From: Agrobacterium vitis
Lineage (GTDB): Bacteria > Pseudomonadota > Alphaproteobacteria > Rhizobiales > Rhizobiaceae
Assembly: GCF_013426735.1 (NCBI RefSeq)
Contig: NZ_AP023272.1
Span: forward strand, 1,966,501-2,030,500
Length of the DNA stretch: 64,000 bases
Direction: 5' to 3'
Positions 19,161 to 37,834 of the stretch are shown piece after piece (positions within the stretch are counted from its first letter, which is position 1; every line of letters starts with the position of its first letter). The position numbers and the translations under genes are program-made. A model generated the notes under the pieces. The model saw only the letters and a list, made by a program, of their open reading frames with translations. It did not search any database and was not told the DNA's origin.

Positions 19161-19548
19161 AGAAGCCTTCGCTCTCCACTTTTTTCGGGCAAGTCCAGAC
19201 CGAAGAACTTGAGTTGGATGAGCCGTGGCGAGATTTCCTTGCTGGGATTGTGAAGGTTCATCGGCTGCGGGAGGTAACTTGCTTATATGGCTTTACCCGC
19301 CTTGAACCACCTCCAACAGCTGCAGAGAGCGAGCTGGATGAAATTCAGCTCGCAGTCGACGGCGCTGATCTTGCCCGCAACGTCGAGTGGCTTCCGGCGA
19401 CAGAACAGTTTGGTGAGGGCATCTTTCTCCATGTCAACCCTGAGTTTATAAGCCGCTGGCGCGGACATGCGGAAGCGGGTGATCGGGCAGTGATATTGAA
19501 GGAGGGAGAAAAGCTTGATGCGGACCGATTTATACGCCGTCTCATTGA

Positions 19549-21327: not shown

Positions 21328-21876
21328 TTAAGGTCGCTGAGACCAGGGTGAAACCCGACCGACAATTACCAAGTCCTCTTTCGCTAATAGAGCGGAATTA
21401 ACGCCCCTGGAAATCTCCCCATGCGTTAGCCATCGAGTGCCGCCGATTTTAGAATCAGTGAAGCCTAAAACCGCAATGCGATAACGTACATCCGGCCGTG
21501 TTAGAGTAAATCGCTCTTGCAAGTCAGCGATGATATCAGGTGTTGAGGGATCGAAAGAAGAACTACCTAGTACATGCAGAAATTCTTGCCGCACAAATTC
21601 ACTAATTATGAATGGTGCATTGGGCGCGTTTTCCATGTGTATCCAGCAAACGCATCGGTCAAAAGGGCGGACCGCCTCCAAGGCCGTTCGTAAATCGGTT
21701 TCATTGCGATAATCAACTTGCAAATGGTAAAGGCGTTCTTTGCCTGAATTACTCGACAATTTCTCAACGGCAGCGGCATTCCGCGATAGCACCGTTATAT
21801 CGTTCCCCGATCTTGCGAGATCGCCCGAAAGCTGGGCGAGCATTCCTGAACCGCCGACGATTAAATAGCGAGACAT
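21328..21876 (-). CDS. NAD(P)-binding Rossmann protein, SDR-like, last gene of biosynthetic operon
   Basis: A 182-residue protein with an N-terminal nucleotide-binding glycine motif (YLIVGGSGMLAQLSGDLARSG) and acidic end of beta-2 region, then VDYRNETDLRTALEAV. It is shorter than classical SDRs (about 250 aa), and no Tyr-x-x-x-Lys motif is visible, so catalysis is uncertain. Several small putative Rossmann oxidoreductases of this length exist. It lies 17 nt after the epimerase-like gene and closes the minus-strand operon. It probably works on or near the same intermediate as its neighbour. Confidence 0.6.
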   Translation of the reverse strand: MSRYLIVGGSGMLAQLSGDLARSGNDITVLSRNAAAVEKLSSNSGKERLYHLQVDYRNETDLRTALEAVRPFDRCVCWIHMENAPNAPFIISEFVRQEFLHVLGSSSFDPSTPDIIADLQERFTLTRPDVRYRIAVLGFTDSKIGGTRWLTHGEISRGVNSALLAKEDLVIVGRVSPWSQRP

Positions 21877-21893
21877 AGTATCATTTCTCTCCG

Positions 21894-22862
21894 TTACAAT
21901 GCAGCCAGTTTGTCTCGCATCGCCCGGAGGCCCTCATAGAGGGATACTTTCGGCTCATATTGCAGTTCTCTTCTGGCTAGTGAAATATCGAGCGGATAGA
22001 GACGGCGCTTGAATAATGGCAGGTCAGCTGATCGGAAATCTAGGCTTGGACAATGAGGAAAAAGCTGTCTCAATGCCAAAATAACCTCCGCACTCGTGGA
22101 GATAGTCCCGGCTCCAACGTTGCAGCGGAGGTGTTGTCGCTTTTCGAGCGCGGTAATAGTTATGTTTGCGGCATCATCAACATACAAGTATTCATTGTCT
22201 CCCAATGCTGCCATTTGTCTAATGGAAACTGATTCTTCACAACCTGCCATAAGATCCTTGACTGTATCTTGAAGGATTTTCCCCATCCACGCTTCGCCGC
22301 GAAACTCTCCCCATCCATAAATCCCTGCAAACCGTAGCGAGATGCCAGTGGCGCCAATGCGGCGAGCGTATCGTTCAATCCAATCCTCAACGTATAATTT
22401 GGCAAAACCATATTCGGAGTCGACTGTCTTGGACGATGTCTCGGTCAACCTCAAATCCGAATTGGAGAAGTCGTATACAGCCAGACTAGACGCATGCACC
22501 ACATGCGGTACACCGGCATCGAATGCGGCTTTGATAAACGATGCTGAGCCAGCGATGTTAATCTCCAAAGCTGCCTGAAGTTCATTGTCGAAATAATTCT
22601 CCATGACGCCCGCACTATGAAAGACTGCGTTTGGCTTTATACGCTGAATTAGATCAAGAACTGCAGCCTGATCTCTAACGTCGGCAGCAACGAATGGAAC
22701 ATGTGTACCGGAGACCTCGCAGAGGTAGTCACGTGCGTCTGGTGCTTTGTCGAGGACGGTGACGTCATCACCTCGGTGCACCAAAATCGCAGCAACATGG
22801 CTACCAAGCATACCAGCGCCTGAAATCAAGTATCTTCGGCTTTCACGAGATGACTCAACCAT
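21894..22862 (-). CDS. NAD-dependent epimerase/dehydratase family protein
   Basis: A 322-residue extended SDR. The N-terminal Rossmann motif is GAGMLGSHVAAILVHRGDDV, followed by VFHSAGVMENYFDNE. The active-site YGFAKLYVEDWIERY contains the Tyr-x-x-x-Lys pair and is preceded by HASSLAVYDF. The C-terminal half fits the NDP-sugar epimerase fold, but extended SDRs also reduce non-sugar substrates. It is in the operon just after the MFS gene (3-nt gap). It might tailor a sugar or reduce a keto group; the sequence does not decide. Confidence 0.75.
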   Translation of the reverse strand: MVESSRESRRYLISGAGMLGSHVAAILVHRGDDVTVLDKAPDARDYLCEVSGTHVPFVAADVRDQAAVLDLIQRIKPNAVFHSAGVMENYFDNELQAALEINIAGSASFIKAAFDAGVPHVVHASSLAVYDFSNSDLRLTETSSKTVDSEYGFAKLYVEDWIERYARRIGATGISLRFAGIYGWGEFRGEAWMGKILQDTVKDLMAGCEESVSIRQMAALGDNEYLYVDDAANITITALEKRQHLRCNVGAGTISTSAEVILALRQLFPHCPSLDFRSADLPLFKRRLYPLDISLARRELQYEPKVSLYEGLRAMRDKLAAL

Positions 22863-22865
22863 CTT

Positions 22866-24092
22866 CTAACCAATCTCGTTGGCGACCTTGCGATCGATAC
22901 CAGATGAGTGAACCTTATAAATAAAGGTCGCTGTACATACAAAAATAGAGAATCCGCTGAGTGTCAAAGAAAGACTGAGCCCTAGGCATTGAAACATCGA
23001 GCCAATAGTAACAGCGCCAAGTGCAGGCGCCCCTCGAACTGCCATACCGTAAAGGCTCATGGCCCGACCTCTGAACGGGGGTTCCACATTCATTTGAAAG
23101 ATAGTTTCTGAGGCAATGCCATTAGCAGCGAGAGACGCGCCAAGCGTAAACAAGACAGGAACGGCAAGCAAAATATTTCCTCCGCCAGCAAAAACGAGAA
23201 GGGTGACCGCGCTGAGAAATCCTGCTACGGCAAGCATTTTGTAGTGCGATATCTCATTCCGTATGCGAGATATAGCTAACCCGCCGACAAAAGCACCTGA
23301 AGCAATGGAGCCAGACAATAATGAGAGGGTTGAAGGATACCCATCGAAGAGGAGTCCAACGAGGCTAGGCATCATCTCCATAAGGCATCGGGCGGAAAAC
23401 GAAACGGCAATCAGCAGAAAAAAAACAGGTCCCAGCGCGCGCGACTTTATTGTGTACATGAACCCACTTGAGATCTGCCGAAACCAATTATCTTTGATCG
23501 GGGCTTTTGGGCTCTGGGCGCTTTGAATAACGGTTAGCGTGGCAAGGAAGGTGAGGGTTGCGAACGCATTCAATGCAAATGGGACCCATGCAGGCCCTGT
23601 TCCGAGCAGAAAGCCAGCTGTGACAGGCCCGACAAAAACCGCGGTATTGAGAATTAAAGAGTTGTAAGCTGCCGCGCGCGTCATTTGATTTTTTTCAACC
23701 AAAGAAGCGATGAATGAAAAACGTGCCGGTCCCTGGAAGCCGTTGAGAATTCCAACAAGAATCGATCCCGCTACCCAAATGAACAGCGGCGGCGGTGCCA
23801 GTGAAACCACAATCGAGAGGATAGCCGAATATGCGACGGCTATGGCGGTTACGGTTTTAAGGATGGCCCTTTCGCCCAATCGGTCGGCAACTGCACCGGC
23901 AATCGGTGCGGCCAGAGTAGATGTTCCAAGCTCTGATAGACTGAGTACTCCAACCCATGTAGGAGAACCAGTCATCTGCCACACCAGCCAAGCTGCGGAC
24001 ACTCGCTGGAGCCAACTTCCGATGAGCGAGGTTCCGTAGGTGATGACGAACACCCAATAGCGAGAAGGTAGCGTTATGGTGTTTAACGACAT
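22866..24092 (-). CDS. MFS transporter (probable exporter)
   Basis: A 408-residue protein with about 12 hydrophobic segments. The first loop reads GALADRLGERAILK-like (AGAVADRLGERAILKTV), the MFS motif A. It resembles the enterobactin-exporter/MFS_3 type (PSLVGLLFDGYP, FRGRAMSLYGMAVRGAPALG). Such transporters frequently export small natural products such as siderophores. Its place between the decarboxylase and epimerase genes fits a self-resistance and export role for the cluster product. Confidence 0.85.
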   Translation of the reverse strand: MSLNTITLPSRYWVFVITYGTSLIGSWLQRVSAAWLVWQMTGSPTWVGVLSLSELGTSTLAAPIAGAVADRLGERAILKTVTAIAVAYSAILSIVVSLAPPPLFIWVAGSILVGILNGFQGPARFSFIASLVEKNQMTRAAAYNSLILNTAVFVGPVTAGFLLGTGPAWVPFALNAFATLTFLATLTVIQSAQSPKAPIKDNWFRQISSGFMYTIKSRALGPVFFLLIAVSFSARCLMEMMPSLVGLLFDGYPSTLSLLSGSIASGAFVGGLAISRIRNEISHYKMLAVAGFLSAVTLLVFAGGGNILLAVPVLFTLGASLAANGIASETIFQMNVEPPFRGRAMSLYGMAVRGAPALGAVTIGSMFQCLGLSLSLTLSGFSIFVCTATFIYKVHSSGIDRKVANEIG

Positions 24093-24102
24093 TTTGGCCT
24101 CT

Positions 24103-25431
24103 CTATAAACAGGCTTGCGACAAGTCGTTCGTAAACTCCGCCACGGATTTCTCTGTTACATCCGGCATTACATACAGCGGAAAAACCCGTAGGGAAGCAG
24201 AAGGCCTGTTTGACGTAGAAAGGATGTCCGAAAATATACCGCACCCTTCCAAGAAATCGGCTATACGGCTACCTTCTTTAGTTTGGTCGTCAATCGCAAT
24301 TGGGACAACATTAAGACCCCCATCTGGTAATAGACTGACAGCTGTGTTGCTGCAGAGTCTTGAACGGAGGTCCGCGACAAGTTCGCGCGCGCGTCCGACG
24401 TCATGCCTTAAACCATTCAAGCCCTTGGACTGCAACACGGCGAATGCCGCCGCCGCCATTGCTCCTGATCGGGAGCCCAGTATAGTCGCGTCAAGCCCTG
24501 AGGTGGTGTAACCAGCTGACCTCTCTACACTCTTCAACGTATCACCTAGGCACAGGAATGCACCGCAACCATATGGCGTGATGCCAAATTTGTGAAGATC
24601 CAGCGTCAGACTTTGAACGTGGCTCCACTCTCTCCATTTTGCAGGAAATGGAGAATCGGGAAGAAAAGGAAACAGAACTCCACCTAATGCAGCATCAACA
24701 TGTATTACTATCGAAACTCTATGCAAATTTTCGATTTCACGCGAAAGTAGAGAAATGGCAGGCAAGTCGTCAATCGCGCCTGCTACTGTAGTGCCAAGTG
24801 TTGCGACGATAATAATCGCCGAAATTCCTTCGTCTATTAGGGAGAGAACTGCGTTTCGAAGTTCGGCTATCGACAACCTGAATTCATTGTCAGCACGAAT
24901 AGTGATATGCTTGTTCCTTGGGGCACTAGTGCTCTGCTCCCCGTTCTCAAAGGCTAGGATATCGCACGCCTTCCTAATAGAAAAATGGGCATTTTCGCAG
25001 GATATAACTGCGATCCGTTTTCCCGTTCCTTGCTTGGCGATAATAGAATTTCTGGCGAGCCAAAGCCCCATTAAATTGCCTTCGCTCGCACCACTGGTAA
25101 CGTAGCCGTCTATTTGTGCGGTATCCGCCGCGTAATATTCCGCCACAAAGTTAATGAGTTCCGCTTCACACTGCCGGAAGGTCTCCCATGGGCTTTTGCG
25201 TGATCCAGCATGCCGTGCTTTCCAGTTTTTGCTATGGACCCCTCCATTGTTCGGATTCAATTTACTGACCGCGGACCAAACAGCAATAGCGATCGGGTCG
25301 GGCGGCATGTCCGGCTTACCCCGAATTTTGCCCTGGGACTTGCTGATCATGTCCCGGAGCTGGTCTTCTGAAAAGAACGTTCCTTCCTCTGACGAAGATG
25401 TCGCTGTTTCACAATCAAGACGGGTCTCCAA
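24103..25431 (-). CDS. group II PLP-dependent decarboxylase
   Basis: A 442-residue fold-type I PLP enzyme of the aromatic/histidine/glutamate decarboxylase group. Visible motifs are YVTSGASEGNLMGLWLAR (phosphate loop), HVDAALGG with the Asp that contacts the pyridine nitrogen, and LTLDLHKFG with the Schiff-base Lys. An aromatic amino acid such as Trp, or a histidine-like substrate, would be decarboxylated to an amine. Substrate cannot be read from these motifs. It is preceded by the ATP-grasp gene (10-nt gap). Confidence 0.85.
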   Translation of the reverse strand: METRLDCETATSSSEEGTFFSEDQLRDMISKSQGKIRGKPDMPPDPIAIAVWSAVSKLNPNNGGVHSKNWKARHAGSRKSPWETFRQCEAELINFVAEYYAADTAQIDGYVTSGASEGNLMGLWLARNSIIAKQGTGKRIAVISCENAHFSIRKACDILAFENGEQSTSAPRNKHITIRADNEFRLSIAELRNAVLSLIDEGISAIIIVATLGTTVAGAIDDLPAISLLSREIENLHRVSIVIHVDAALGGVLFPFLPDSPFPAKWREWSHVQSLTLDLHKFGITPYGCGAFLCLGDTLKSVERSAGYTTSGLDATILGSRSGAMAAAAFAVLQSKGLNGLRHDVGRARELVADLRSRLCSNTAVSLLPDGGLNVVPIAIDDQTKEGSRIADFLEGCGIFSDILSTSNRPSASLRVFPLYVMPDVTEKSVAEFTNDLSQACL

Positions 25432-25441
25432 AATAAACTCC

Positions 25442-26689
25442 CTAAATTGGATCGCTCGTTATAACTGGGGTTAAAATGGCGACGGCTTTTTCTATTGCCT
25501 CTTCGGCGTGGTCAGCCGTCGGGCCGACCGCAATAACATGGGCCAGCCTGCTATTGTTATCGGTACCGCCATGAACATATGCGCCAGTTTCTTTGTGCTG
25601 TAGAACCTCAACAACGCCTGGGATTGCGGTCGCCTGGTCAATGCCGCAGAGACGCTGGAAGATGCCAGAGGAGGCCGGATAAACAAATCTAATAGCGGCG
25701 GCTTGCTGGGGAGATGTGGCTGGCAGATCAATGGGATAATTCAGCATCGCCATTATATGAAGTTTGTACAGGTCGATGCCGGAAGCTAGAGGCAGCAGTC
25801 GTGTCGCAATGAAATCTCCCCCGGGTCTGGCGTTCGTTTCGATTATTCGAATTCGATCACCATCAAATTTTACCTCCACATGCATCGGACCTTGCGTCAA
25901 TCCTATAGCTTTTACCGCCTGAAAACTAACAGAAACCAATCTTGACGAAAGTTCTAAGCTAATATTGGCCGGTAAAATATGTCCAATTTCGTCGCAATAT
26001 GGAGGACTACTCGTTCGCTTGGCGGTGATGTAATTAAAAACCAGCTCTCCATTTAGAAGAAACAATTCAACGCTATATTCGGCGCCTCCGATATACTCTT
26101 CAAATATAAATTTTTTCTGATGCCGATACCCGAACTGGTTTTTTGACTGCAAGGTCTCACCGAAGTAGGAGATGAGTTCATCGACCGAACGACAAATTTT
26201 CACTCCTTGGCTCGACCAGGAATCAACCGGTTTAATGACACCTGGAAACCCAACATAAGAGGTGATACGGCCAACTTCGTCCACATCTAATAGATCTACA
26301 TAGCGCAGAGAGGGTATCCCCGCACCTAAATACAACTCCCGCGCTAGATATTTATCCAAACTTGCTTTGTAAGAATCTTCCGAGTTTGTTTTAAATCCGA
26401 AATGGGACGAAACTCGCGCACAAGTTTCTAGTAAAAATTCATTTCCAGCGATTATCGCATTAATACTATCGAAGCATGGCGCATTCCTTACTGCCTCAAT
26501 CAAATATAAAGGTTCAATTGTATCTTTCTCTTCGACAATGAAATCAACGAGGTGTCGATAGTTGAACTCATCTAGGAGGTCTATATTACTTACAATGGCG
26601 ACAACTTGCAGGCCGAGATCTTTTGCAGCCACTACATAGCCACGCCCGTAATAAGCTGGTTCGACGATAGCAACGGCGGCCCTATTCAT
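25442..26689 (-). CDS. ATP-grasp carboxylate-amine ligase (L-amino-acid ligase-like)
   Basis: A 415-residue protein. The pre-ATP-grasp Rossmann-like part (VAIVEPAYYGRGYVVAAKDLG) is followed by an ATP-grasp domain: YVGFPGVIKPVDSWSSQGV (ATP-binding Lys and loop), FIFEEYIGGAEYSVE, and IIETNARPGGD with the Mg-binding Glu/Asn. The C-terminal part (VYPASSGIFQRLCGI) fits the C-terminal domain of BacD/L-amino-acid ligases. Such enzymes join an acyl-phosphate to an amine without tRNA. In this cluster it could make a dipeptide, or extend a peptide C-terminus. Confidence 0.85.
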   Translation of the reverse strand: MNRAAVAIVEPAYYGRGYVVAAKDLGLQVVAIVSNIDLLDEFNYRHLVDFIVEEKDTIEPLYLIEAVRNAPCFDSINAIIAGNEFLLETCARVSSHFGFKTNSEDSYKASLDKYLARELYLGAGIPSLRYVDLLDVDEVGRITSYVGFPGVIKPVDSWSSQGVKICRSVDELISYFGETLQSKNQFGYRHQKKFIFEEYIGGAEYSVELFLLNGELVFNYITAKRTSSPPYCDEIGHILPANISLELSSRLVSVSFQAVKAIGLTQGPMHVEVKFDGDRIRIIETNARPGGDFIATRLLPLASGIDLYKLHIMAMLNYPIDLPATSPQQAAAIRFVYPASSGIFQRLCGIDQATAIPGVVEVLQHKETGAYVHGGTDNNSRLAHVIAVGPTADHAEEAIEKAVAILTPVITSDPI

Positions 26690-26701
26690 CTTATTTCTCC
26701 C

Positions 26702-28447
26702 TCAACGACCAACCGCATAGACCATCATTCGGCGAGGGCAAGCTGCAGCTCGAATGAGACTGCCAGTTCGTGAGATTGCGCTTACAGAACCCAGCCTCCA
26801 ATCATGATCCGCATTACGAACCATGTGGCCTTTTTCTTTTAGACCCTCAATTATCTCCGTCCCAATTCGCGGTTCAACCGTCACTAGTAGAGGGCGCAAT
26901 TCGAATGGTGGAAAAGAACTCTTCAAGTGCTCCGTTTGGACAGTCGGAGCATCAAGAGCCTCTTGCATGTCAAACCCGCGATATAGATGGCGAAGGAAAA
27001 ACAACATTTGCCATTGTTCTTGTTGGTCAGCACCAGGTGTTGCAATTGCAATCGATGGGTTGAGTTCACTAAGCAATAACGTTGGCGACAGTGTCGTTCG
27101 AGGTCTTTTCCGCGGTGCAAGCGAATTTGGATGGCCTTTAACGAGCGAAAACCCGCATCCCCGGACACTTAGTGCAATGCCCAATGAATCGATTATAGGT
27201 GACTCAAGCACCGTCCCGCCGCTCTGGGTTGCGGCCACAATATTCCCAAACTTGTCGCTCGCAATGATGCTTGTAGTGTTCGTCGCTTTGGGATCCGCTC
27301 CCAGCGGATCATGCTGCAAAGAGCGTATGTGTTCCTCAATTGGTGAAACTGGTCCGTATGATGAGTTTTGATCTTCAATGGCGTGTTTGCCAATAAGCGC
27401 GGCTCGTCTATTTGAGTTTTCGGTTGATAAAAGATCTGTGAGCCGAACGTCGCAAAAATTCGGGTCGCCATAATAGGCGTCTCGATCAGCAAAAGCCAAC
27501 TTAGTTGTTTCTAAGAAAACATGCAAAAAGGAAACCTCGTCCAATCTCCGAAGATCATTTCCGCAGGAATTTAGCAACGCGAGTTGCTGTAGAAAAACTG
27601 GGCCTTGAGTCCAGGGCCCTGGCTTAAAAGCGTTGTAGTCACCAAAGCTATAGCTGCAGGGGTCCTCGTAGGTGGCTTCCCATTCAACAAAATCATTTAT
27701 AGATAGCAATGCGCGAAATTTATCGCCGCCGAGCGTGTGGGCCACCGGCGAGGCAAGGACTTTTTCGAATTCCTCTGCGACAAATCCTTGGCGAAACGTC
27801 CACCGAGCGCGTTCAATTTGAGCTTCCCGCTTAGACCCAACGGATTCGGCCTCTTGAATAATAAGCTCTAAAGTTTGCGCCAAGCGCAGATTTCTGTTGC
27901 CGAGTCCTTGGGAGTCCGGCTGGAGTTCACTGATGAGGCCAAAATTTGCCGGCCATTCGCGCTCAAAAAAAGACGAAAGTCGTTTGATTTCCCGTTTGAT
28001 GAACACCGTCTGTGAACAGCCCGATTTTGCGTAAAATATTGCCGATTCAAGAGCTTCACGAACTGAAATGGTGCCATAGTCGCGTAGGAGAAGCATCCAA
28101 GAATCAAAACAGCCCGGCGTTACGGCTGCTAACAGGCCGCGGGCTGGCATCTCGCTTATTCCTAGTGATTTCACAGCTGTAATTGACGCAGCCGCACCTG
28201 ATACGCCTTGACCGCATAGTACGCGAACTTCGCTCTCTTTAGGCTTGAAAATTGTTACACACTCACCGGCAATTCCGTTGAATTCTGGCAAGACTGCTTG
28301 TAGCACGAACGCACCAGCCGCTGCTGCGTCAAAGGCGTTGCCGCCTTGCTCGAGAATTTTCATTCCCACGGCGGATGCCAAATAGTGCGTTGAAGACACT
28401 GCGCCAAAATGCGCCATAATCACGGGTCGGGTCGAGAACGCTGCCAT
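26702..28447 (-). CDS. gamma-glutamyltranspeptidase-like Ntn hydrolase without signal peptide
   Basis: A 581-residue protein of the GGT family. Visible features are GMKILEQGGNAFDAAAA near the N-terminus, the autoprocessing/catalytic Thr in DPKATNTTSIIASDKFGN, and the C-terminal subunit with RPRTTLSPTLLL and TPGADQQEQWQ. Usual bacterial GGTs have a Sec signal; here the protein starts MAAFSTRPVIMAHFGAVSS, so it is probably cytoplasmic. It might remove or transfer a gamma-glutamyl group, or hydrolyse an amide to release a product. Its start overlaps the aminotransferase gene by 28 bp. Confidence 0.85.
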   Translation of the reverse strand: MAAFSTRPVIMAHFGAVSSTHYLASAVGMKILEQGGNAFDAAAAGAFVLQAVLPEFNGIAGECVTIFKPKESEVRVLCGQGVSGAAASITAVKSLGISEMPARGLLAAVTPGCFDSWMLLLRDYGTISVREALESAIFYAKSGCSQTVFIKREIKRLSSFFEREWPANFGLISELQPDSQGLGNRNLRLAQTLELIIQEAESVGSKREAQIERARWTFRQGFVAEEFEKVLASPVAHTLGGDKFRALLSINDFVEWEATYEDPCSYSFGDYNAFKPGPWTQGPVFLQQLALLNSCGNDLRRLDEVSFLHVFLETTKLAFADRDAYYGDPNFCDVRLTDLLSTENSNRRAALIGKHAIEDQNSSYGPVSPIEEHIRSLQHDPLGADPKATNTTSIIASDKFGNIVAATQSGGTVLESPIIDSLGIALSVRGCGFSLVKGHPNSLAPRKRPRTTLSPTLLLSELNPSIAIATPGADQQEQWQMLFFLRHLYRGFDMQEALDAPTVQTEHLKSSFPPFELRPLLVTVEPRIGTEIIEGLKEKGHMVRNADHDWRLGSVSAISRTGSLIRAAACPRRMMVYAVGR

Positions 28448-29538
28448 TTATGTTCAGCTCCCTTCAAGCGTGCGTTTTTTTTTAAAGCCTCGAGGACTAT
28501 ATCCAGCGAGTCGCGGAGAGCGTCCGCCACTTCTGGTGCTCGGCCGGATGTCATGGCGAAATTCACCCTGAAGCGAAGTGCATCACGTTGGCTTGCGTCG
28601 AAAGGCTGTCCATCTGCGATCAACATGTTATGGCGGATGGAAACCAATTTTACGAAATCAGCGCTCTTCACCCCTACTTTTCCCATGTCGAACCAAAGGA
28701 AGTAAGCGCCAGCCGGAGGATTAATTTGTAGGTCGGCCCGTTTAAGAGCCGCTACTGTGGCGTCTCGGTCGTCTTTGCACCGTTGCACCAACTGCCGCTT
28801 CCATGAGTGCATTTCGGACCATTCGTGATACGCTAGAGCGAGAACCTGGGCCGGTGTCGAGGCGGACATAGCGAGAGCGTAATGCACACGATCTACTCGC
28901 GAGCTCATTGCGGTCGGAGAAATCAGATAACCAATCCTCCAACCAGTAATACCTAACATCTTCGAAAAACTACAGATTCTGAAGCAGTCGACATCATGGG
29001 AGGGTTCGGGGTTATGGCCCTCATAAACAAAGTCTCGATAAACCTCATCATACAATAACGTTGCGTTGTAGGAGCGGCAAAGCTCCTCGACATACAAGAG
29101 CTGATCGGGCTTGATCACATGCCCGGCAGGGTTACTGGGTGAGTTCACGAGTACGAAGCGTGGTCGCTCTCGCGAGAACAGCGCCCCCAGGTCGTCCCAT
29201 CCCGAATAAAGGACGGTCCTCATTCCTAGAAACTGCACTGTATTTCTAGTGCCTGGAAAGCAAATCTGCGGCAGGGCAATCAGATCGCCCGCGCCGCCGG
29301 CCGAGAGAAGGGCCACAGTGAGGGCCATAGATGCGCCGCCGGTAATGCTGATTTGGCTCGGCGAAATGGGCTGTCCTAGAACCGCGGTTGAAGCGATCGC
29401 CTCCCGCAATTCGGGCATGCCACCTGGTGGTAGATAATTCATAGGGCGACCTAAGAGACAACCCAGGACTTTATCCTGGATCGGCTGTGGAATCGTCGTT
29501 CGGAGTTCACCTATAGATAGATCCAGTGCCTCTTTCAT
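28420..29538 (-). CDS. class I/II PLP-dependent aminotransferase
   Basis: A 372-residue fold-type I PLP enzyme. Motifs are ITGGASMALTVALLSAG (cofactor phosphate region), LVNSPSNPAGH, LYDEVYRDFVYEG, the Schiff-base Lys in CSFSKMLGITGWRIGYL, and RFRVNFAM near the C-terminus with the substrate-carboxylate Arg. It is likely to transaminate an amino acid, possibly an aromatic one. ATG overlaps the methyltransferase stop (ATGA), so the two are translationally coupled. Confidence 0.88.
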   Translation of the reverse strand: MKEALDLSIGELRTTIPQPIQDKVLGCLLGRPMNYLPPGGMPELREAIASTAVLGQPISPSQISITGGASMALTVALLSAGGAGDLIALPQICFPGTRNTVQFLGMRTVLYSGWDDLGALFSRERPRFVLVNSPSNPAGHVIKPDQLLYVEELCRSYNATLLYDEVYRDFVYEGHNPEPSHDVDCFRICSFSKMLGITGWRIGYLISPTAMSSRVDRVHYALAMSASTPAQVLALAYHEWSEMHSWKRQLVQRCKDDRDATVAALKRADLQINPPAGAYFLWFDMGKVGVKSADFVKLVSIRHNMLIADGQPFDASQRDALRFRVNFAMTSGRAPEVADALRDSLDIVLEALKKNARLKGAEHKWQRSRPDP

Positions 29539-30218
29539 TCCGCCCTCCGAACGATATCAAGGCCAAATTGGTCAATAGCAACAGTTTTCTTTCCAGTGAA
29601 CCTTGTGATATCGTAGGTCAGTTTTTTATATTGAACCAAGTCGTTCTGGAACTTTGGCCAGCAGACATCATGCGCCAGTAACGTTCCGCCCGGCGTCAGT
29701 ACGGGCCACACCGCGTCAACGAGACTTGAATAATTTTCTTTCCCACGCTCGGGATCGTCGGCATCGAGTAGAACCAAGTCTACGGTATCGGAAATGAAAT
29801 TCTGTATGTCATGACCGTCGCCCAAGACCACGTCAATATTGTTCAACCCGAATCGGGCAAAATTCCCACGCGCGATTTCGTTAGCCTTTTGGTCTGGATC
29901 AATGCCGATCACTTTGGCATGCGGACCCGCGCCAGCGGCGAGCCAGATCGTCGAGTTACCCTGGTATGATCCGATTGTGACTATTAATTTGGGACCGATT
30001 GAGCGGCCAATAGCATACAGAAGCCGTGCCATGCGCGTCGTAATAGCAGTTACGTCGACATTAAACGTTTGGTTAACTTTTTTTGAAACGGAGCCGAATT
30101 CACTCAAAGGGCAATTATGGAAAGGCAAGAAGCCGCTAGCTTGCAAATGTCGAACTGCATGAAGCACTATCAAATCGTTGCGATGCTCTTCATCGGGGCT
30201 TTCTTTCCCCACTCTCAT
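29535..30218 (-). CDS. class I SAM-dependent methyltransferase (O-methyltransferase-like)
   Basis: A 227-residue protein from ATG 30218, which overlaps the stop of the upstream flavoprotein gene (ATGA). The SAM-binding motifs are PKLIVTIGSYQGNSTIWLA (motif I), VIGIDPDQKANEIA, and DLVLLDADDPERGKENY; TPGGTLLAHDVCWP follows. This layout is that of catechol-type O-methyltransferases (Methyltransf_24), where the DAD loop binds metal. It could methylate a phenolic hydroxyl made by the nearby flavoproteins. An upstream in-frame start at 30266 is less likely. Confidence 0.8.
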   Translation of the reverse strand: MRVGKESPDEEHRNDLIVLHAVRHLQASGFLPFHNCPLSEFGSVSKKVNQTFNVDVTAITTRMARLLYAIGRSIGPKLIVTIGSYQGNSTIWLAAGAGPHAKVIGIDPDQKANEIARGNFARFGLNNIDVVLGDGHDIQNFISDTVDLVLLDADDPERGKENYSSLVDAVWPVLTPGGTLLAHDVCWPKFQNDLVQYKKLTYDITRFTGKKTVAIDQFGLDIVRRAE

Positions 30219-30808
30219 CTGGCCCCCCCATTGAATTCGAGATGACAGAAAGCTGCATAGTCCCACGCCGTACGGATAAGTGTTTCAGGATCTTCAGTGC
30301 GTGGATTGTCGCAAAGGAAGCTTCGTGAGACTACTTCCCCGCCCATGAGCCGCACTGTGACACGCAACTGAGCATCCGCTCTTTTTGCGTCGTCTGCCGC
30401 CGCCCCGATTACGACCAAGGCGACAAGGCAGTTTTCTAGGGGCAGGGCTCGTTCGTGAGATTGATCTAGGGGATTATCGTACAGCGCGCCGCCCAGAACA
30501 TCTAGAAGGTTCTTCGCAATCCCACTTGGTCCGCCCCAGTAAGCTGGCACAGACAGCACCAGACGCTGACATCTTCGTAGTTTTTCGACCAAATCATCTA
30601 GATCTGGCCTTTGGTAGGCCGACAGAGGCAAACCTTCAAAAAGGGGAATACCAAGAGTTTTGAGATCAAAACTGTGAACAGCATTTCCGGCTCGGCGAAG
30701 TCCACCTTCGACGATCGACAAAACTTGCCGACTAGCAGATCTCTTTTCTTGGGTGAGACCGGCACCTTTGAGGCTTGAACAGATTGTAACGATAGCGGGT
30801 TCTCGCAT
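30215..30808 (-). CDS. NADPH-dependent FMN reductase/quinone oxidoreductase family protein (second copy)
   Basis: A 197-residue flavodoxin-fold protein. An N-terminal phosphate-binding loop (TICSSLKGAGLTQEKRSASRQ) is followed by LVLSVPAYWGGPSGIAKNLLDVLGG, the characteristic FMN_red (PF03358) segment that binds flavin and forms the dimer. It is paralogous in fold to the protein at 32947-33510. In natural-product pathways such flavoproteins may supply reduced flavin or oxidise aromatic or peptide-bound residues directly. It is in the operon, 12 nt after the TPR gene. Confidence 0.82.
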   Translation of the reverse strand: MREPAIVTICSSLKGAGLTQEKRSASRQVLSIVEGGLRRAGNAVHSFDLKTLGIPLFEGLPLSAYQRPDLDDLVEKLRRCQRLVLSVPAYWGGPSGIAKNLLDVLGGALYDNPLDQSHERALPLENCLVALVVIGAAADDAKRADAQLRVTVRLMGGEVVSRSFLCDNPRTEDPETLIRTAWDYAAFCHLEFNGGAR

Positions 30809-30820
30809 AGCTCTTACGCA

Positions 30821-32491
30821 CTACTGCGCTCCTACCAGAGACTTGTTCAGATCGACATCCGGCAAAGGCAGCATATCGACCAGCGGATTGTAAGACGGTA
30901 ATTTTGACGGAAGTCGAGGTGTCCTCTTCCCAACTGGAAAAAAACCCGCATCCTCAAGTGATTGAAAACGTATCCGAAAATCTCTTGAGTCTGTAAGATT
31001 TCGGTAGAATGCTGCTAGCACTCCTATTTCTTGCAATAAACTCGTATCGCGTTGGCGTTGAGACATTGTTTGACATTCAATGAACCAAGGCTCAGCATCA
31101 TTAGTGTTTCCGACACTGAACTCCAGGGTGGCAAGTGCAAGCGCTATTCGAGAACGTGAGTAGTGAAGCATCGAATTCGTTGCGGCGGCAAACGACTCCA
31201 TGAATTTTTCGCGCGCAAATGATATATCGCCAGACCGGAATGCTATGCTGCCGATTCGATAGAAATAGCTCATCAAAAATTCGTCATTGTTCGTGTTCCT
31301 GATATATTTTCCGAATACTTCGTCAAAATGACGACGAGCTTCCAAATATTTTCCTTGAATCTCTAAGAGCAACACACAGTTTGCTACTAAATTGAATTTT
31401 AGATATTCCACATCGGCACCGGATAATCGAGCGATGCGTCGTAATGCAAGCAATTCCCTCCTCATTGCAGAGTCTAGGAGACGAATTTTATTGGCAGGCG
31501 ATGCCGCCCTAGCCGCCATACTATCTAGCAGGGCCAATCCATTATCTTGCCACGAAAGCTCCAGTGCTGCTGCTGCCGGATCCAACACAGCGCCGTTTGC
31601 CTCAATTTCGTTCTTGCCACGTTCGAAGTAACTTTGAGCCGCAGACATATCATAACGCCTCTTGGCCAAAATCAGCCCATTAAGGTAGAGTACTTGTGAC
31701 CGTAAGATCCGGTCCTCCGTGAGCGTCAAGGCCTGTTCCAAAGCACTGATGGCATCATCGATGTTCCCAAGGTTGCAATCGACTGTGGCTCGAAGGCGCA
31801 AGGCTTTGGCTGCTTGGAAATCATCTAATGGGCCTAGCAAAACGCTGCGGTTGAGTTGATATGCTCGGTCATAGGTCAGAAACGACAGGCAATCTGCAAA
31901 ATCCTGCTCGTATTGGCCGAAGTCCGAACGCTGCATGTCGACGTCGCTGAAAATACCATTAGTGCTGGCCTCTGAAAAAGACGATAAGAACCGGACATTC
32001 GGGTCACGTTCTGCTATCGCTGTGTATAACAGTCGCCTGGCAAGAAGAATTTCAGACTCCATTGATCTGTCTCGCCCCCGTCGATCAAGGACATCGAGTT
32101 CAAAAACTACTGGAATATCTAAAAAACAATTGCAGCGTGCCAACACCCTTAAAGATGCGCTATCAACTCCGTCTGCCTGTTGTATGCGGATCCGCGCAAC
32201 TTTGTGTTGAGACAATGCATAAGCCAGCTGTTCCGCCTGTTGCTCGATCAAAGCTGAAATCCGAATTGTTTCACGGCTAATTCGCCGAGTGACGGCTTGC
32301 ACAGCCGATCGCCCTGTCGAACCGATTTCTCCGTTTCCGCTGTTGGGGCTTAGCAAGCGGAAAGCTTCTTCGCCAAACGACGTGCAAAGTTGAGTTTTGA
32401 GTGATTTCAAGAACGAAAAATGGTGAAAGTTTGCCTCGGCCCGGACGCAAAAAAAACCTGTTTCAGCCCCACTAAATAAAGCCTGATTCAT
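30821..32491 (-). CDS. TPR-repeat protein of unknown role, directly downstream of the small peptide gene
   Basis: A 556-residue cytoplasmic protein. Residues about 1-180 are of unrecognised family. Residues about 210-480 are helical repeats of TPR type (AAKALRLRATVDCNLGNIDDA, ISALEQALTLTEDRILR, YFYRIGSIAFRSGDISFA, LALATLEFSVGNTNDAEPW). The C-terminus is Pro-rich. It starts with a good SD (GAAGGG) 94 nt after the peptide gene, past the hairpin. TPR arrays bind peptides, so it may hold the precursor for the tailoring enzymes, or act as a regulator. No catalytic motif is seen, and no LanB/PEARL, YcaO or radical SAM signature is present. Confidence 0.65.
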   Translation of the reverse strand: MNQALFSGAETGFFCVRAEANFHHFSFLKSLKTQLCTSFGEEAFRLLSPNSGNGEIGSTGRSAVQAVTRRISRETIRISALIEQQAEQLAYALSQHKVARIRIQQADGVDSASLRVLARCNCFLDIPVVFELDVLDRRGRDRSMESEILLARRLLYTAIAERDPNVRFLSSFSEASTNGIFSDVDMQRSDFGQYEQDFADCLSFLTYDRAYQLNRSVLLGPLDDFQAAKALRLRATVDCNLGNIDDAISALEQALTLTEDRILRSQVLYLNGLILAKRRYDMSAAQSYFERGKNEIEANGAVLDPAAAALELSWQDNGLALLDSMAARAASPANKIRLLDSAMRRELLALRRIARLSGADVEYLKFNLVANCVLLLEIQGKYLEARRHFDEVFGKYIRNTNNDEFLMSYFYRIGSIAFRSGDISFAREKFMESFAAATNSMLHYSRSRIALALATLEFSVGNTNDAEPWFIECQTMSQRQRDTSLLQEIGVLAAFYRNLTDSRDFRIRFQSLEDAGFFPVGKRTPRLPSKLPSYNPLVDMLPLPDVDLNKSLVGAQ

Positions 32492-32551
32492 TACGGAAAC
32501 CCTTCATGGACTTACGTGGCGAAAGACAGGGAAAACGGATAAAGTGATAAA

Positions 32552-32579
32552 GGGAGGCTGCGCTTTACCACAGCCTCCC
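32552..32579 (-). terminator. attenuator-like hairpin after the small peptide gene
   Basis: A perfect 9-bp GC-rich stem (GGGAGGCTG / CAGCCTCCC) with a 10-nt loop begins 6 nt past the stop codon of the 47-aa gene. On the minus strand it is followed by TTTATCACTTTATC. A partial terminator between a precursor gene and its modification genes gives excess precursor mRNA in many peptide natural-product operons. On the plus strand it is followed by AGCTTTTT, so it may stop transcripts in both directions. Confidence 0.7.
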
Positions 32580-32585
32580 AGCTTT

Positions 32586-32729
32586 TTACCAAGCGATCGC
32601 TTTGACGGCGGTGGCTAGGCGCTCTTCATCACCTTCTTCAGGGAGAAGGTTGGCTTCGGCGAGAATATCCGCCAGGGTCAGTTCTTCCTGATTGATTGCT
32701 TCATGCGAGACTTCAGCTTGGGTATCCAT
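32586..32729 (-). CDS. small acidic peptide ending in Trp: candidate RiPP/scaffold precursor
   Basis: A 47-codon ORF inside the biosynthetic operon. It starts MDTQAEVSHEAINQ and ends ERLATAVKAIAW, with stop TAA. The SD GGAG lies 8 nt upstream of ATG. The N-terminal 35 residues are rich in Glu/Asp (a leader-like EELTLADILAEANLL helix); the C-terminal 10 residues are small and aliphatic with a terminal Trp. It has a 217-nt upstream region with a promoter-like TTGACA and an attenuator-like hairpin after it. Trp-terminated precursors of this kind are known from the ammosamide/lymphostin pathways, where the terminal Trp is processed on the peptide. Its role is inferred from context. Confidence 0.7.
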   Translation of the reverse strand: MDTQAEVSHEAINQEELTLADILAEANLLPEEGDEERLATAVKAIAW

Positions 32730-32777
32730 TTGATTGCTCCATTGCTTGAATTCACGATTACTGCATTTACAACGTCA

Positions 32778-32806
32778 AAATTTTCACCGAAATGTACAAC
32801 TGTCAA
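32778..32806 (-). promoter_or_regulatory. candidate promoter of the small peptide gene
   Basis: On the minus strand a consensus TTGACA -35 hexamer (32801-32806) is followed after 16-17 nt by an AAAATT/AAATTT element as weak -10. Transcription would begin about 40 nt before the ATG at 32729. This would give the peptide gene its own transcript in addition to read-through from the ligase and flavoprotein genes. Confidence 0.45.
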
Positions 32807-32852
32807 GCGAGCGGTAGCGGTATTTGCTTCCGATGCTCAGGCCGCTCACTAG

Positions 32853-32870
32853 GTAAGTTGCGACACTTAC
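32853..32870. promoter_or_regulatory. 18-bp palindrome upstream of the peptide promoter
   Basis: GTAAGT, 6-nt centre, ACTTAC: a perfect dyad about 50 bp upstream of the TTGACA element. Size and position suit an activator operator, including LuxR-type sites, which are dyads of 18-20 bp. No regulator gene is found in the island to pair with it. Confidence 0.4.
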
Positions 32871-32946
32871 GTACAAATTTGCGCATTTCACATTTTTGTG
32901 ATTACAGGCAATTTCCGCCCAATCTTTTCGCTTTTCGGTCAAATGC

Positions 32947-33510
32947 TCAAAAAACAAGCGCTTTTAGTGGCGGTACGAGAGCAATCATCTCTAATGCCAA
33001 TCGCTCAACTCTCCTCAAAATTTCAGGAGAAATGAGGTGAGGTTGCCCACCAACCAATTCATAGTCTGTTTTTGTTGTGGCGACGTGCGTTTGGAGCGGA
33101 TGGCCGTAAAGAGTTCGAATAATCGTTTGCAGATGCTCACAAGGCTGAGCGCACAATCTTATTGAACTACCGTGGCTCAATAGTCCAACCGGCTTGTTGC
33201 GAAATGCATCGTACCACAGATGATCGAGTGCGTTCTTTAGAACTCCTGAGTACGAGCCATGATACAGAGGCGAGCCTATCGCCAATCCGTCTGCTCGCCG
33301 CACACTGTCATAAAACCGCTGCACAGCACCATCTGGATTTTGTTCGGGAGCCCAATGGAATTCAGGTTGTGCAATTGGTAGTTGTGATGTTTGAAAATCC
33401 CAAATGTCAACTTCGTGCTCAAGAGAGGTCAGGTTTTGAGCGAGAGAGTTCATTAGCTCCCTCGTATGGGAGGAGCTTGATATCGATCCTGAAATCAACA
33501 TAAAACGCAT
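32947..33510 (-). CDS. NADPH-dependent FMN reductase family protein (first copy)
   Basis: A 187-residue flavodoxin-fold protein. The N-terminal phosphate loop is LISGSISSSSHTRELM, followed by DGLAIGSPLYHGSYSGVLKNALDHLW, the FMN_red (PF03358) signature; RNKPVGLLSHGSS follows. The SD AGGGGG precedes ATG 33510. It lies between the acyl-AMP ligase (26 nt upstream) and the small peptide gene (217 nt downstream). With the second copy at 30215-30808 the cluster has two such flavoproteins. The ammosamide-type pathways also use FMN-dependent oxidoreductases on peptide-bound Trp, so an oxidation role is possible. Confidence 0.82.
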   Translation of the reverse strand: MRFMLISGSISSSSHTRELMNSLAQNLTSLEHEVDIWDFQTSQLPIAQPEFHWAPEQNPDGAVQRFYDSVRRADGLAIGSPLYHGSYSGVLKNALDHLWYDAFRNKPVGLLSHGSSIRLCAQPCEHLQTIIRTLYGHPLQTHVATTKTDYELVGGQPHLISPEILRRVERLALEMIALVPPLKALVF

Positions 33511-33536
33511 GAAAGCCCCCTGATTGAGAAAAGATG

Positions 33537-35030
33537 TTAGATATCAACCAATTTAAAAAAGCCGATGCGCTGAAGCTTTCCGGTTGGGCCTTTTGGCAGC
33601 TCTTTAAGAAAAATTATCTTCTTTGGAACCTTGAAGTCGGCGAGGCGCGCAGAAGCGAAGGCACGTATTGAACTTTCTGTTTCTATCGCCCCTTCACTTA
33701 GAACTATCGCCACACCAACTTCCTCGCCAAGCGTATCGTGAGGATATGCAAACGTACAGACCTGTTCAATCGCCGGATGTTCGATCAAAATGTCATCAAC
33801 CTCCCTTGGGGAGATCTTTTCGCCGCCTCGATTTATTATTTCTTTGATGCGGCCCGTAAGGTGTAGATAGCCGTCGGCGTCTAAAAAACCTTCGTCGCCT
33901 GTTTTAAACCAGCCATCTATGAATGCGGCACTATTGATAGCTTCCGAGGCGTCGTATCTATCGAGCACCGTTGCGCCCTTGATGCAGACTTCACCGATGG
34001 TTCCTGGTTCTAACGAGACACCTGACAGTGAAAGTATACCAACATGTACAGCTGCTGAAAGGCCGACCGAGCTGGCTTTCCTAGTCGCCGGTGGTAATGG
34101 ATTTGATGAAATTTGGTGGGCCGCCTCGGTCATTCCGTATGCTTCAATTAATGGACATCCGAACTTCCTCTCAACCGCTTGCATAACTCGGGGAGGCATA
34201 GGAGAAGATGAAGAACGTATAAATCTCAATTTCTTACCGATATCTCGCGCATCGTTGTCTCCCACGCGCGCAACAATTGCTTGATGCATCGTGGGGACTG
34301 CGGTGAACCAGGTCGGGGTATTCTCCCTAGCCCATTGCGTGAACTTGAAAACGTTGAAGCCGGGCGTACACGAGATCGAACCGCCGCTTTGGAGCGATGA
34401 TAAAAGCGCACCGACAAGGCCGTGTATATGAAAAAGAGGCATGATATTGAGACAGCAGTCTTCGTCGCTTAATCTCAACGAGCTTGCAATGTTTTTCGCG
34501 GAAAGCAATAATTTTTCTTTGGAAAGAGGAACCATCTTTGGCCGAGATGTAGTTCCCGACGTGTGCAGGATTAGAGAAATGTCCGCTGGTACGGCGTCGC
34601 TTTTGGTACGTTCATTGATTTGAGGTTGGCCATGTATATCGAAGGTACCCGCAGCGTCCCGGCGGGGCTGTAAGTGAATCATTGGAATTCGCAGTTCAGC
34701 GGCGGCGGCTTCGGCAGCTGCGTTACTAAATTCGTGAACTAGAAGCGCTGTTGCACCAAGATCGCTGAGATAAAACTTGAATTCTTCCTTTCTGTAGGCC
34801 GGGTTTAAAGGTGCGGCGATGGCAAAATTGGCAACGGAGAGAAAAGCAGTAGCCATTTCAGGCCCGTTTGGTAGTACTATCGCAATGCGATCCGTACCGC
34901 TGTATCCTAGGGAGCGAAAACGATCATTTTGAGAAATGATGTGGTTTCGTAGAGCGCCATAGGTCAGGCTATTTCTGCCTGGCGCTTTAATTGCAGTCGC
35001 ATTTGGACTGCCAACCAGCACTTCTAGCAT
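33537..35030 (-). CDS. acyl-AMP ligase / acyl-CoA synthetase (ANL superfamily)
   Basis: A 497-residue protein from ATG 35030 (GAGGG SD seven nt upstream); the frame is open further up to 35123 but without SD. Core motifs are LILHTSGTTSRPKMVPLSK (P-loop), EAYGMTEAAH, WFKTGDEGFLDADGYL, GRIKEIINRGGEKISP, and the C-terminal adenylation Lys in LPKGPTGKLQRIG. Closest in general look to oxalate-CoA ligase/fatty acyl-CoA synthetases. It is the first gene of the operon and would activate a carboxylic acid, perhaps an acyl cap or the product itself. No carrier protein gene is seen nearby. Confidence 0.85.
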   Translation of the reverse strand: MLEVLVGSPNATAIKAPGRNSLTYGALRNHIISQNDRFRSLGYSGTDRIAIVLPNGPEMATAFLSVANFAIAAPLNPAYRKEEFKFYLSDLGATALLVHEFSNAAAEAAAAELRIPMIHLQPRRDAAGTFDIHGQPQINERTKSDAVPADISLILHTSGTTSRPKMVPLSKEKLLLSAKNIASSLRLSDEDCCLNIMPLFHIHGLVGALLSSLQSGGSISCTPGFNVFKFTQWARENTPTWFTAVPTMHQAIVARVGDNDARDIGKKLRFIRSSSSPMPPRVMQAVERKFGCPLIEAYGMTEAAHQISSNPLPPATRKASSVGLSAAVHVGILSLSGVSLEPGTIGEVCIKGATVLDRYDASEAINSAAFIDGWFKTGDEGFLDADGYLHLTGRIKEIINRGGEKISPREVDDILIEHPAIEQVCTFAYPHDTLGEEVGVAIVLSEGAIETESSIRAFASARLADFKVPKKIIFLKELPKGPTGKLQRIGFFKLVDI

Positions 35031-37773: not shown

Positions 37774-37834
37774 GTCTATTACTCCCTATATGCTCGTCGG
37801 CGATGATCATCGCACCGAGCAATTGAACCGTGTT

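Follow-up and report, generated by a model that had tools for sequence, protein, structure and literature searches.

Can a pathway of the ammosamide kind use a tryptophan that the ribosome has already placed at the end of a peptide, without the PEARL proteins that otherwise add it? This question is raised by an operon of Agrobacterium vitis, located in a 64,000-nucleotide stretch of contig NZ_AP023272.1 (assembly GCF_013426735.1) that is referred to here as the window and whose numbering is used throughout. The operon consists of 13 open reading frames (ORFs), all on the minus strand, from 35123 (or ~35030) down to 21328, which bears out the thirteen same-strand genes that a first-pass annotation had placed at 21328..35030. 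In the order of transcription, these genes encode an AMP ligase, a flavin mononucleotide (FMN) flavoprotein (FMN2), a 47-residue peptide, a tetratricopeptide repeat (TPR) protein, a second flavoprotein (FMN1), a methyltransferase (MT), an aminotransferase-fold enzyme (AT), a gamma-glutamyltranspeptidase-like protein (GGT), an ATP-grasp ligase, a pyridoxal phosphate (PLP) decarboxylase, a major facilitator superfamily (MFS) exporter, an epimerase-family reductase (EPI) and a small NAD(P)-binding protein resembling short-chain dehydrogenases/reductases (SDRs). The answer favored here, with a rough probability of 0.68, is that the TPR protein modifies the encoded Trp in a PEARL-free, ammosamide-like, peptide-scaffolded pathway of the alkaloid type; confidence is lower for each later step of that pathway. 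The ammosamide/lymphostin logic had been suggested in the first-pass annotation. It now has strong indirect support from the homology of the TPR protein to the hallmark Trp hydroxylase, while the class of the product is still inferred.

Kinship of the TPR protein with BhaC1 and AmmC1

BhaC1 and AmmC1 are described as FMN enzymes with TPRs that act on a scaffold peptide in pyrroloiminoquinone biosynthesis, adding three hydroxyl groups to its C-terminal Trp (PMC9850906). In a search of 5.8 billion proteins, the only match listed for the window TPR protein at E <= 0.001 was P0001, an actinobacterial-looking protein with an E value of 1.4e-10. The window's own TPR protein was not among the matches listed, and a search with the profile A2, which has P0001 among its rows, listed none at E <= 0.001, P0001 included. 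These protein-database searches scored the 7998 candidates sharing the most words, and absences from them therefore say little. Comparison of the rhizobial and actinobacterial TPR profiles by hhalign gave a probability of 98.1% and an E value of 8e-14, with the homology extending over the TPR half, and the window protein scores 62.8 bits with the actinobacterial profile in hmmsearch.

The actinomycete relatives reveal the genomic context of the family. In Actinoplanes flavus (L009) three ORFs with the PEARL domain (PF04738) and two TldD/PmbA ORFs come after the TPR gene. The Actinoplanes protein was used to find a relative on a plasmid of Kitasatospora sp. NBC_00039 (H51, L024/L028), where the TPR gene is followed by PEARLs, an FMN_red protein, TldD and TldE (as annotated) and a DAO oxidase; PF04738 was found in 3 of the 8 large Kitasatospora ORFs scanned. 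Upstream of the Kitasatospora TPR gene lies a 40-residue scaffold-peptide ORF ending in IAPLALA. When a Trp is added to this peptide, its alignments with AmmA*-Trp and BhaA-Ala-Trp score 120 and 109, respectively, and neither score is reached by any of 5000 shuffles. Both actinomycete relatives with a readable context are thus located beside PEARLs and TldD/E proteases. The PEARL and TldD/E contexts of Actinoplanes and Kitasatospora, together with the AmmA/BhaA-like Kitasatospora peptide, are the reason for taking this TPR family to be that of BhaC1 and AmmC1. By sequence comparison the window TPR protein is a distant homologue of these two enzymes, its membership of their class running through the PEARL-associated relatives. 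The Trp oxidase is probably the TPR protein and neither of the small flavoproteins.

The residues described for AmmC1 were followed through the Kitasatospora protein. The residues reported for AmmC1, K350, N432 and K602 (PMC9850906), correspond to K331, N413 and K583 in Kitasatospora with a constant offset of 19. The active-site Lys (BhaC1 391, AmmC1 350) and the Asn that contacts the indole (472 and 432, respectively) correspond to K277 and N371 of the window protein. Both residues are invariant in six aligned proteins, two of which are close Rhizobium relatives. Lys391 of BhaC1 was assigned by tandem mass spectrometry as the residue cross-linked to the modified indole (PMC11117183).

Structural searches were less informative. 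Searches of the PDB by sequence with the TPR proteins found no relative, just two TPR chains at chance level. The model of the window protein is poor outside the repeats (mean pLDDT 60.5), and a fold search with it returned TPR superhelices in general, which is uninformative on the chemistry; VIA-align on the P0001 model also listed TPR proteins. As a separate observation, the proteins of this class (P0001 residues 1-240; L009:8936-10846; window 30821-32491) seem to have a degenerate STAND/AAA-like N-terminal half, which we take from the broken P-loop and the Walker-B-like 'DLHLADPATL' of P0001. Foldseek with the P0001 model listed the STAND-TPR protein 6mfv at rank 48 (E 1.7e-4), and Pfam gave no AAA domain match in these TPR proteins up to E 10. 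If this resemblance is true, a regulator-type ATPase fold has been turned into an FMN oxygenase.

The 47-residue peptide

The gene for the 47-residue, Trp-terminated peptide described earlier is confirmed. A GGAG sits 7 nucleotides ahead of its ATG, and the product, with 12 Asp/Glu and 2 Lys/Arg, ends in KAIAW with the Trp encoded. The motif A[ILVM]AW occurs within the last ten residues of just 1 of the 1012 small ORFs of the window, which is this peptide. The peptide has no Pfam match (E limit 0.1), nor any match among the plasmid records even at E 10. According to the work on BhaC1, the substrate carries a C-terminal Trp preceded by Ala, a position at which only Ser and Gly are partly tolerated; the Leu two residues before the Trp is essential, and Trp that is not terminal is acted on with little to no activity (PMC9850906). 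The Ala-Trp end of the window peptide agrees with this requirement.

The gene is flanked by gaps of 217 bp upstream and 94 bp downstream. Directly 3' of it lies a terminator- or attenuator-like hairpin with a folding energy of -25.9 kcal/mol (z -4.3; 1 of 200 shuffles is equally stable), which was not listed by a separate pattern scan. A stable hairpin after the precursor gene is a common layout among ribosomally synthesized and post-translationally modified peptides (RiPPs). The corresponding gaps between the peptide and TPR genes in Rhizobium have no comparable hairpin signal (z -0.9 and -0.4).

Rhizobium cassettes and distribution of the family

When 72,556 plasmid records were searched by tblastn with the TPR protein, five matched at E 0.01, all of them from Rhizobium. 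The first-pass annotation had held that homologous clusters lacking the peptide would count against a peptide-scaffolded pathway; the outcome favors the pathway in the loci whose peptide was read, those of the R. leguminosarum Vaf strains (L004, L005) and of R. lusitanum 629 (L006). All three have a peptide gene with an A-x-A-W motif, a 75-residue ORF upstream of the TPR gene that ends in ALGAVAWAGASV (L004, L005) or AFGAVAWAGAAV (L006), with the tail pattern AVAW-AGA[SA]V. A small ribosomal peptide gene is therefore present in the window and in 3 of 3 Rhizobium loci read, with AxAW in common. The Rhizobium gene order is peptide, TPR, the EPI counterpart, FMN1, MT, AT and FMN2, with the SDRs counterpart on the other strand, so that the conserved cassette consists of the peptide and seven enzymes. 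The same seven enzymes match in R. leguminosarum Vaf-46 (L008). The shared Rhizobium proteins are 25-38% identical to those of the window. A pyruvoyl-type decarboxylase precedes the Rhizobium peptide, identified as PF02329 in L004, by annotation in L005 and as a near-identical ORF in L006.

The TPR gene was found in 1 of 100 genomes of relatives, the strain's own, and a profile search of the phylum gave 1 of 398 genomes, again its own. Among 394 genomes of the family, a profile search gave the strain's own genome and two weak matches of 29-31 bits, which were set aside. In the class of Actinoplanes 2 of 296 genomes matched, Actinoplanes and a weak 33-bit match (G1140), and the latter was set aside as well; tblastn of the window proteins and nine Kitasatospora proteins against its surroundings gave no match at E 0.01. 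In the genus of Vaf-46, 3 of 148 genomes matched. A scan of contigs with two patterns from A2, in which 45 stretches matched, yielded two loci, those of Vaf-46 and Actinoplanes flavus. A foreign origin of the operon is plausible because its TPR gene is found in only one of the 100 genomes of relatives, its own. The GC content of the operon is 47-52% and that of the rest of the window is 45-62% (2-kb steps), a contrast that is only suggestive as a sign of foreign origin.

The carrier strains were isolated from Vavilovia formosa (Caucasus) and from an Oxytropis pumilio root nodule (Kamchatka), and two of the three Rhizobium plasmids read are typed as conjugative; it is possible that symbionts of wild legumes exchange the cassette. 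In R. leguminosarum Vaf-108 (L005:13208-14731) the TPR gene is broken up by an ISNCY-family element, and a second TPR copy, in two pieces, is present in the genome with L004; intact copies exist.

Search for PEARLs and comparison with known systems

In the amm and bha pathways PEARLs are reported to add the Trp, and in bha also the preceding Ala (PMC9850906, PMC12424672). The lack of LanB/PEARL proteins noted earlier agrees with a search of the A. vitis genome, in which PF04738 gave 0 matches. There were likewise 0 in the genome of R. leguminosarum Vaf-46 and none in any of 14 control genomes, and 10 were obtained in the Actinoplanes genome as a positive control. The operon resembles the ammosamide/bha logic yet lacks the feature that defines pearlins, a PF04738 protein that adds an amino acid. 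The FMN quinone reductase of pearlins is represented by two PF03358 proteins of predicted activity, and the Kitasatospora cluster has one. No domain of a FAD (flavin adenine dinucleotide) glycine oxidase was found in the operon by Pfam, and no search for a DAO oxidase was made in the rest of the genome.

The nearest characterized system is the amm cluster of Streptomyces sp. CNR-698, with its ammosester/lymphostin relatives. The two share a short acidic peptide ending in A-[LI]-A-W, a TPR flavoenzyme of the AmmC1 class, an FMN quinone reductase of the Amm17 type, a methyltransferase and an exporter. In the window, however, the Trp is encoded and the genome has no detected PEARL; FAD glycine oxidase, dedicated TldD/E and halogenase are missing from the operon, and an aminotransferase-fold enzyme, PLP decarboxylase, GGT, ATP-grasp ligase and AMP ligase are present instead. 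The bha cluster of Alkalihalobacillus halodurans C-125 (BhaA, BhaB1/B7/B5/B4, BhaC1, BhaG, BhaH) is similar in the Ala-Trp end of the substrate, the TPR flavoenzyme with its Lys/Asn pair and the FMN quinone reductase. BhaA itself lacks the Ala and Trp, which are added by PEARLs, and the window peptide shares the tail only. The PEARL clusters of Kitasatospora sp. NBC_00039 and Actinoplanes flavus NEAU-H7 hold the TPR relatives outside Rhizobium that have a readable context. They differ from the window in having several PEARL-domain ORFs and a TldD/E pair each. The Kitasatospora peptide stops at LALA without a Trp, and no scaffold peptide was recognized in the Actinoplanes stretches. The plasmid cassettes of the R. 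leguminosarum Vaf strains and R. lusitanum 629 share with the window the peptide-TPR-EPI-FMN1-MT-AT-FMN2-SDRs set and, in the one genome tested (Vaf-46), the lack of PEARLs; they differ in their longer peptide, whose Trp is six residues from the end, and in the upstream decarboxylase of the pyruvoyl type (HDC). Mycofactocin and PQQ are also small redox compounds whose source residues are encoded at, or close to, the end of a ribosomal peptide; they involve radical-SAM chemistry and other residues and enzymes.

Evidence against and alternative explanations

Several observations weigh against modification of the encoded Trp by the TPR protein. Outside the AxAW tail the peptide has no match to AmmA (803 of 5000 shuffles score as high) or BhaA (2300 of 5000), so that whole-peptide similarity is not significant, and its match to the Rhizobium peptide is marginal (145 of 5000 shuffles; 51 of 2000 in a separate test). 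The Leu position of the BhaC1 substrate is Ile in the window peptide and Val in Rhizobium. Additionally, the Rhizobium peptide is not acidic (8 acidic and 9 basic residues) and its Trp is internal, with five residues after it. Trimming of these five residues would be needed there, or a relaxed enzyme, the carboxylate-binding Lys being lost. The Rhizobium TPR protein itself scores only 20.1 bits with the actinobacterial profile. The second carboxylate-binding Lys (BhaC1 654, AmmC1 602) is not conserved in the rhizobial proteins, where the actinobacterial KLNRPF aligns, weakly, with DLNK (window) and DLED (Rhizobium), and the spacing between Lys and Asn is 92-94 residues in the rhizobial proteins versus 81-82. 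For the AMP ligase, GGT, ATP-grasp ligase, PLP decarboxylase and MFS exporter, the ~30-kb loci L004, L005 and L006 gave no match below E 0.5. The operon has no domain of a dedicated TldD/E protease by Pfam, and the two TldD/PmbA matches elsewhere in the genome are both far from it. Finally, BhaC1 and AmmC1 are reached only by way of their relatives.

The alternative that survives best, although it is unlikely, is that the TPR protein is a non-catalytic docking protein and that another enzyme, for instance an FMN protein, modifies the Trp, which would leave the pathway peptide-scaffolded. The amm cluster does have such a TPR protein, AmmC2, which is thought to be non-catalytic; its existence weighs against a catalytic role here, as does the loss of the third AmmC1 residue in the rhizobial proteins. 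The window TPR protein, however, retains the Lys that is cross-linked to the substrate in BhaC1, and the window/Rhizobium profile matches the Kitasatospora protein with all three AmmC1 residues (21.4 bits) and not kP3, the other unassigned Kitasatospora ORF tested (-3.1 bits).

It is similarly improbable that the product is a true RiPP, with the modified Trp staying on the peptide and the MFS protein exporting the modified peptide or its C-terminal fragment. The lack of a dedicated releasing peptidase, with only the two distant TldD/PmbA genes in the genome, and the five residues that follow the Trp in Rhizobium would fit such a product. The decarboxylase, amino-acid ligase and aminotransferase families, in contrast, mostly act on small amino acids, and the modified Trp is reported to be released in the characterized amm pathway.

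An ordinary amino-acid pathway, in which free amino acids are decarboxylated, ligated and methylated, the 47-residue ORF is an attenuator leader peptide and the TPR protein is a regulator, would account for the strong terminator-like hairpin and for an N-terminal half that may be STAND-like, as in many regulators, but is very unlikely, since the ORF has a single Trp codon, the Rhizobium peptides retain A-V-A-W while their gaps have no significant hairpin, Pfam found no DNA-binding domain, and the TPR family belongs to PEARL clusters in both readable actinomycete contexts (the weak G1140 match having no matching neighbors).

Proposed pathway

If the TPR protein oxidizes the encoded Trp, the pathway would begin with the acidic peptide that the ribosome supplies already ending in Ala-Trp. 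The TPR protein would bind this peptide and hydroxylate its terminal Trp at the indole, yielding a hydroxyquinone, as suggested by its homology to the BhaC1/AmmC1 class and the conserved Lys/Asn pair. BhaH is reported to set the redox state of the quinone as a quinone reductase (PMC11117183). By analogy with BhaH and Amm17, FMN1 and FMN2 more likely act as quinone reductases, and they would cycle the quinone and hydroquinone. MT could then cap a ring hydroxyl, and AT and the epimerase-like reductases may take on the nitrogen and redox tailoring that is done by PEARLs and the glycine oxidase in amm and bha. The modified Trp might be cut off by the GGT-like hydrolase or by the unlinked TldD/PmbA proteins of the cell, which are tentative candidates. 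The freed amino acid would be decarboxylated by the PLP enzyme and, in Rhizobium, possibly by the pyruvoyl enzyme. In the window cluster only, the ATP-grasp and AMP ligases might extend or acylate the amino acid, with export by the MFS protein. The product is probably a Trp-quinone alkaloid that is methylated and may also be decarboxylated.

Among the shared functions the decarboxylase is the least expected, being of the PLP type in the window and of the pyruvoyl type beside the Rhizobium cassette. If the pathway uses both decarboxylases, its end product may be without the carboxylate of the Trp, as is the case for makaluvamines. A review reports a proposal that makaluvamine biosynthesis begins with the decarboxylation of Trp (PMC9787360). 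Alternatively, both enzymes could provide an amine partner, for example histamine or tyramine, because their nearest models are histidine and tyrosine decarboxylases.

The odds are slightly in favor of a broader interpretation, that the operon represents a second, tRNA-independent branch of scaffold-peptide alkaloid biosynthesis, in which the Ala-Trp substrate of a BhaC1-class enzyme comes from the ribosome, with PLP, SDR and ligase enzymes in place of the PEARLs and glycine oxidase to introduce nitrogen and complete the molecule. In a bolder version, the ATP-grasp ligase of the amino-acid-ligase type would reload Trp on the spent peptide as a tRNA-free substitute for a PEARL. No report of such a PEARL-free cluster was found in the PEARL and scaffold-peptide literature covered, which does not include the founding work, where a prior mention is possible.

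Operon genes and genomic surroundings

The features of the operon are given in Table 1. The gene families named in the first-pass annotation were recovered by Pfam for both FMN_red proteins, MT, AT, the PLP decarboxylase, ATP-grasp ligase, GGT, AMP ligase, TPR protein, epimerase and MFS exporter, with the exception of the last ORF, SDRs, which has no Pfam match (E limit 0.001).

Table 1. Positions in the window of the operon genes and the hairpin, in the order of transcription.
Feature	Coordinates	Strand	Evidence and remarks
Acyl-AMP/acyl-CoA ligase (AMP ligase)	33537..35123	-	PF00501 207.7 bits, PF13193; start uncertain: TTG 35123 or ATG ~35030
FMN2, NAD(P)H:FMN quinone-reductase-like flavoprotein	32947..33510	-	PF03358 96 bits
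Precursor/scaffold peptide, 47 residues, acidic, ends Ala-Ile-Ala-Trp	32586..32729	-	sequence; Rhizobium counterparts; tail motif
Terminator/attenuator-like hairpin between peptide and TPR genes	32530..32590	-	folding energy
TPR protein, candidate Trp-hydroxylating flavoenzyme of BhaC1/AmmC1 class	30821..32491	-	P0001 match, hhalign, Lys277/Asn371
FMN1, divergent NAD(P)H:FMN flavoprotein	30215..30808	-	PF03358 56.6 bits
MT, S-adenosylmethionine-dependent (O-)methyltransferase	29535..30266	-	PF13578, PF01596; true start may be internal
AT, PLP-dependent class I/II aminotransferase-fold enzyme	28420..29538	-	PF00155
GGT, gamma-glutamyltranspeptidase-like N-terminal nucleophile (Ntn) hydrolase	26702..28447	-	PF01019 260 bits
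ATP-grasp ligase of L-amino-acid-ligase type (GRASP)	25442..26689	-	PF13535, PF18603 (LAL_C2)
PLP-dependent decarboxylase, MfnA/histidine-decarboxylase-like (DEC)	24103..25431	-	PF00282; TTG start
MFS exporter	22866..24092	-	PF05977, PF07690
EPI, NAD(P)-dependent epimerase/dehydratase-family reductase	21894..22862	-	PF01370 101 bits
SDRs, small SDR-like NAD(P)-binding protein, 182 residues	21328..21876	-	similarity to Rhizobium protein

The enzymes of the conserved cassette are only distantly similar to their Rhizobium counterparts. FMN2 is 35-38% identical to them, with a weak similarity to the FMN_red protein of the Kitasatospora PEARL cluster (E 1e-9), FMN1 is 27-28%, EPI 26% and SDRs 27-30% identical, the last to a protein at the cluster end. 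MT is 25-28% identical, and all 7 solved chains that it matched are O-methyltransferases. AT is 27% identical; its best NCBIfam model is GntC, with a score of 149.7 bits under a cut-off of 415, and a GntC-like cyclization was dropped because the score is far under that cut-off. SDRs was dropped as a marker of the cluster: nine plasmid records hold relatives, four being the Rhizobium ones, and of the five others the four that were opened (Rahnella, two Streptomyces and Peribacillus) show no cluster of this kind in their annotation. In Peribacillus sp. R9-11 (L032:5419-6553) the SDRs relative adjoins an NADPH-dependent FMN reductase, a pair of families also found in the operon, and the rest of the cluster is not in the annotation.

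The best NCBIfam model for the AMP ligase is FadD7 (391 bits, under the cut-off of 650). The GGT family, for which the nearest solved chain is 6j3a, is common on rhizobial plasmids (best rows 43-44%), and a cluster-specific C-C hydrolase role, as in lincomycin-type pathways, was dropped for this reason. In graspetide and pheganomycin-type RiPPs, a RimK-like or PGM1-type ATP-grasp enzyme acts on the peptide. The window ATP-grasp ligase scores only 23.5 bits with the RimK-family model; its best Pfam matches, PF13535 and PF18603, are of the amino-acid-ligase type, its nearest solved chain is the L-amino acid ligase BL00235 (3vot), and its database relatives other than itself are 25-31% identical (P0003 to P0028). 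The PLP decarboxylase scores 143 bits with MfnA and 121 bits with histidine decarboxylase, both under cut-off, and its nearest solved chain is MfnA (3f9t).

Several 4-bp overlaps had been described in the operon, of which just one exists, at 29535-29538. GGT and AT overlap by 28 bp, and MT and FMN1 overlap by 52 bp with the listed starts, a size that hinges on the choice of start. The operon had also been placed on a tRNA island, which does not hold, since the sole tRNA found (Cys, 55630-55703) is ~20 kb away. Directly upstream on the same strand, 35818-39286 holds a PF04185 phosphoesterase gene (phospholipase-C-like) and a second gene with no Pfam match that resembles a phosphatidylinositol-specific phospholipase C (PI-PLC) by eye. 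On the other side, phage-like ORFs were recognized by eye at 120-20652, a stretch that ends close to the 3' end of the operon, and this left flank includes an integrase-like ORF at 17083-17832 and a transposase-like ORF at 20104-20652, both also assigned by eye. An insertion sequence (IS) at 17928-19197 is 99.9% identical to copies on Agrobacterium vitis plasmids. Near matches to 1-21000 on plasmids come from Agrobacterium (22 of 53 records), Rhizobium (15), Ensifer (6) and others, and the listed rows are all IS-sized stretches.

Significance

Enzymes of the BhaC1 class are reported to be unique in performing three hydroxylations of one indole without a canonical flavin site (PMC11117183), and they are discussed as possible tools to label proteins at a C-terminal Trp (PMC9850906). 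If true, a branch that acts on an encoded Trp would mean that PEARLs are not essential to BhaC1-class chemistry, and it would provide a simpler study system of two genes, the peptide and the TPR enzyme. It would also offer a direct way to ask why the known pathways add the Trp post-translationally. The conserved cassette is a search handle, a TPR enzyme with an A-x-A-W peptide and no PEARL, for further clusters of this kind, and the branch, if true, would bring ammosamide-type logic into plant-associated Alphaproteobacteria.

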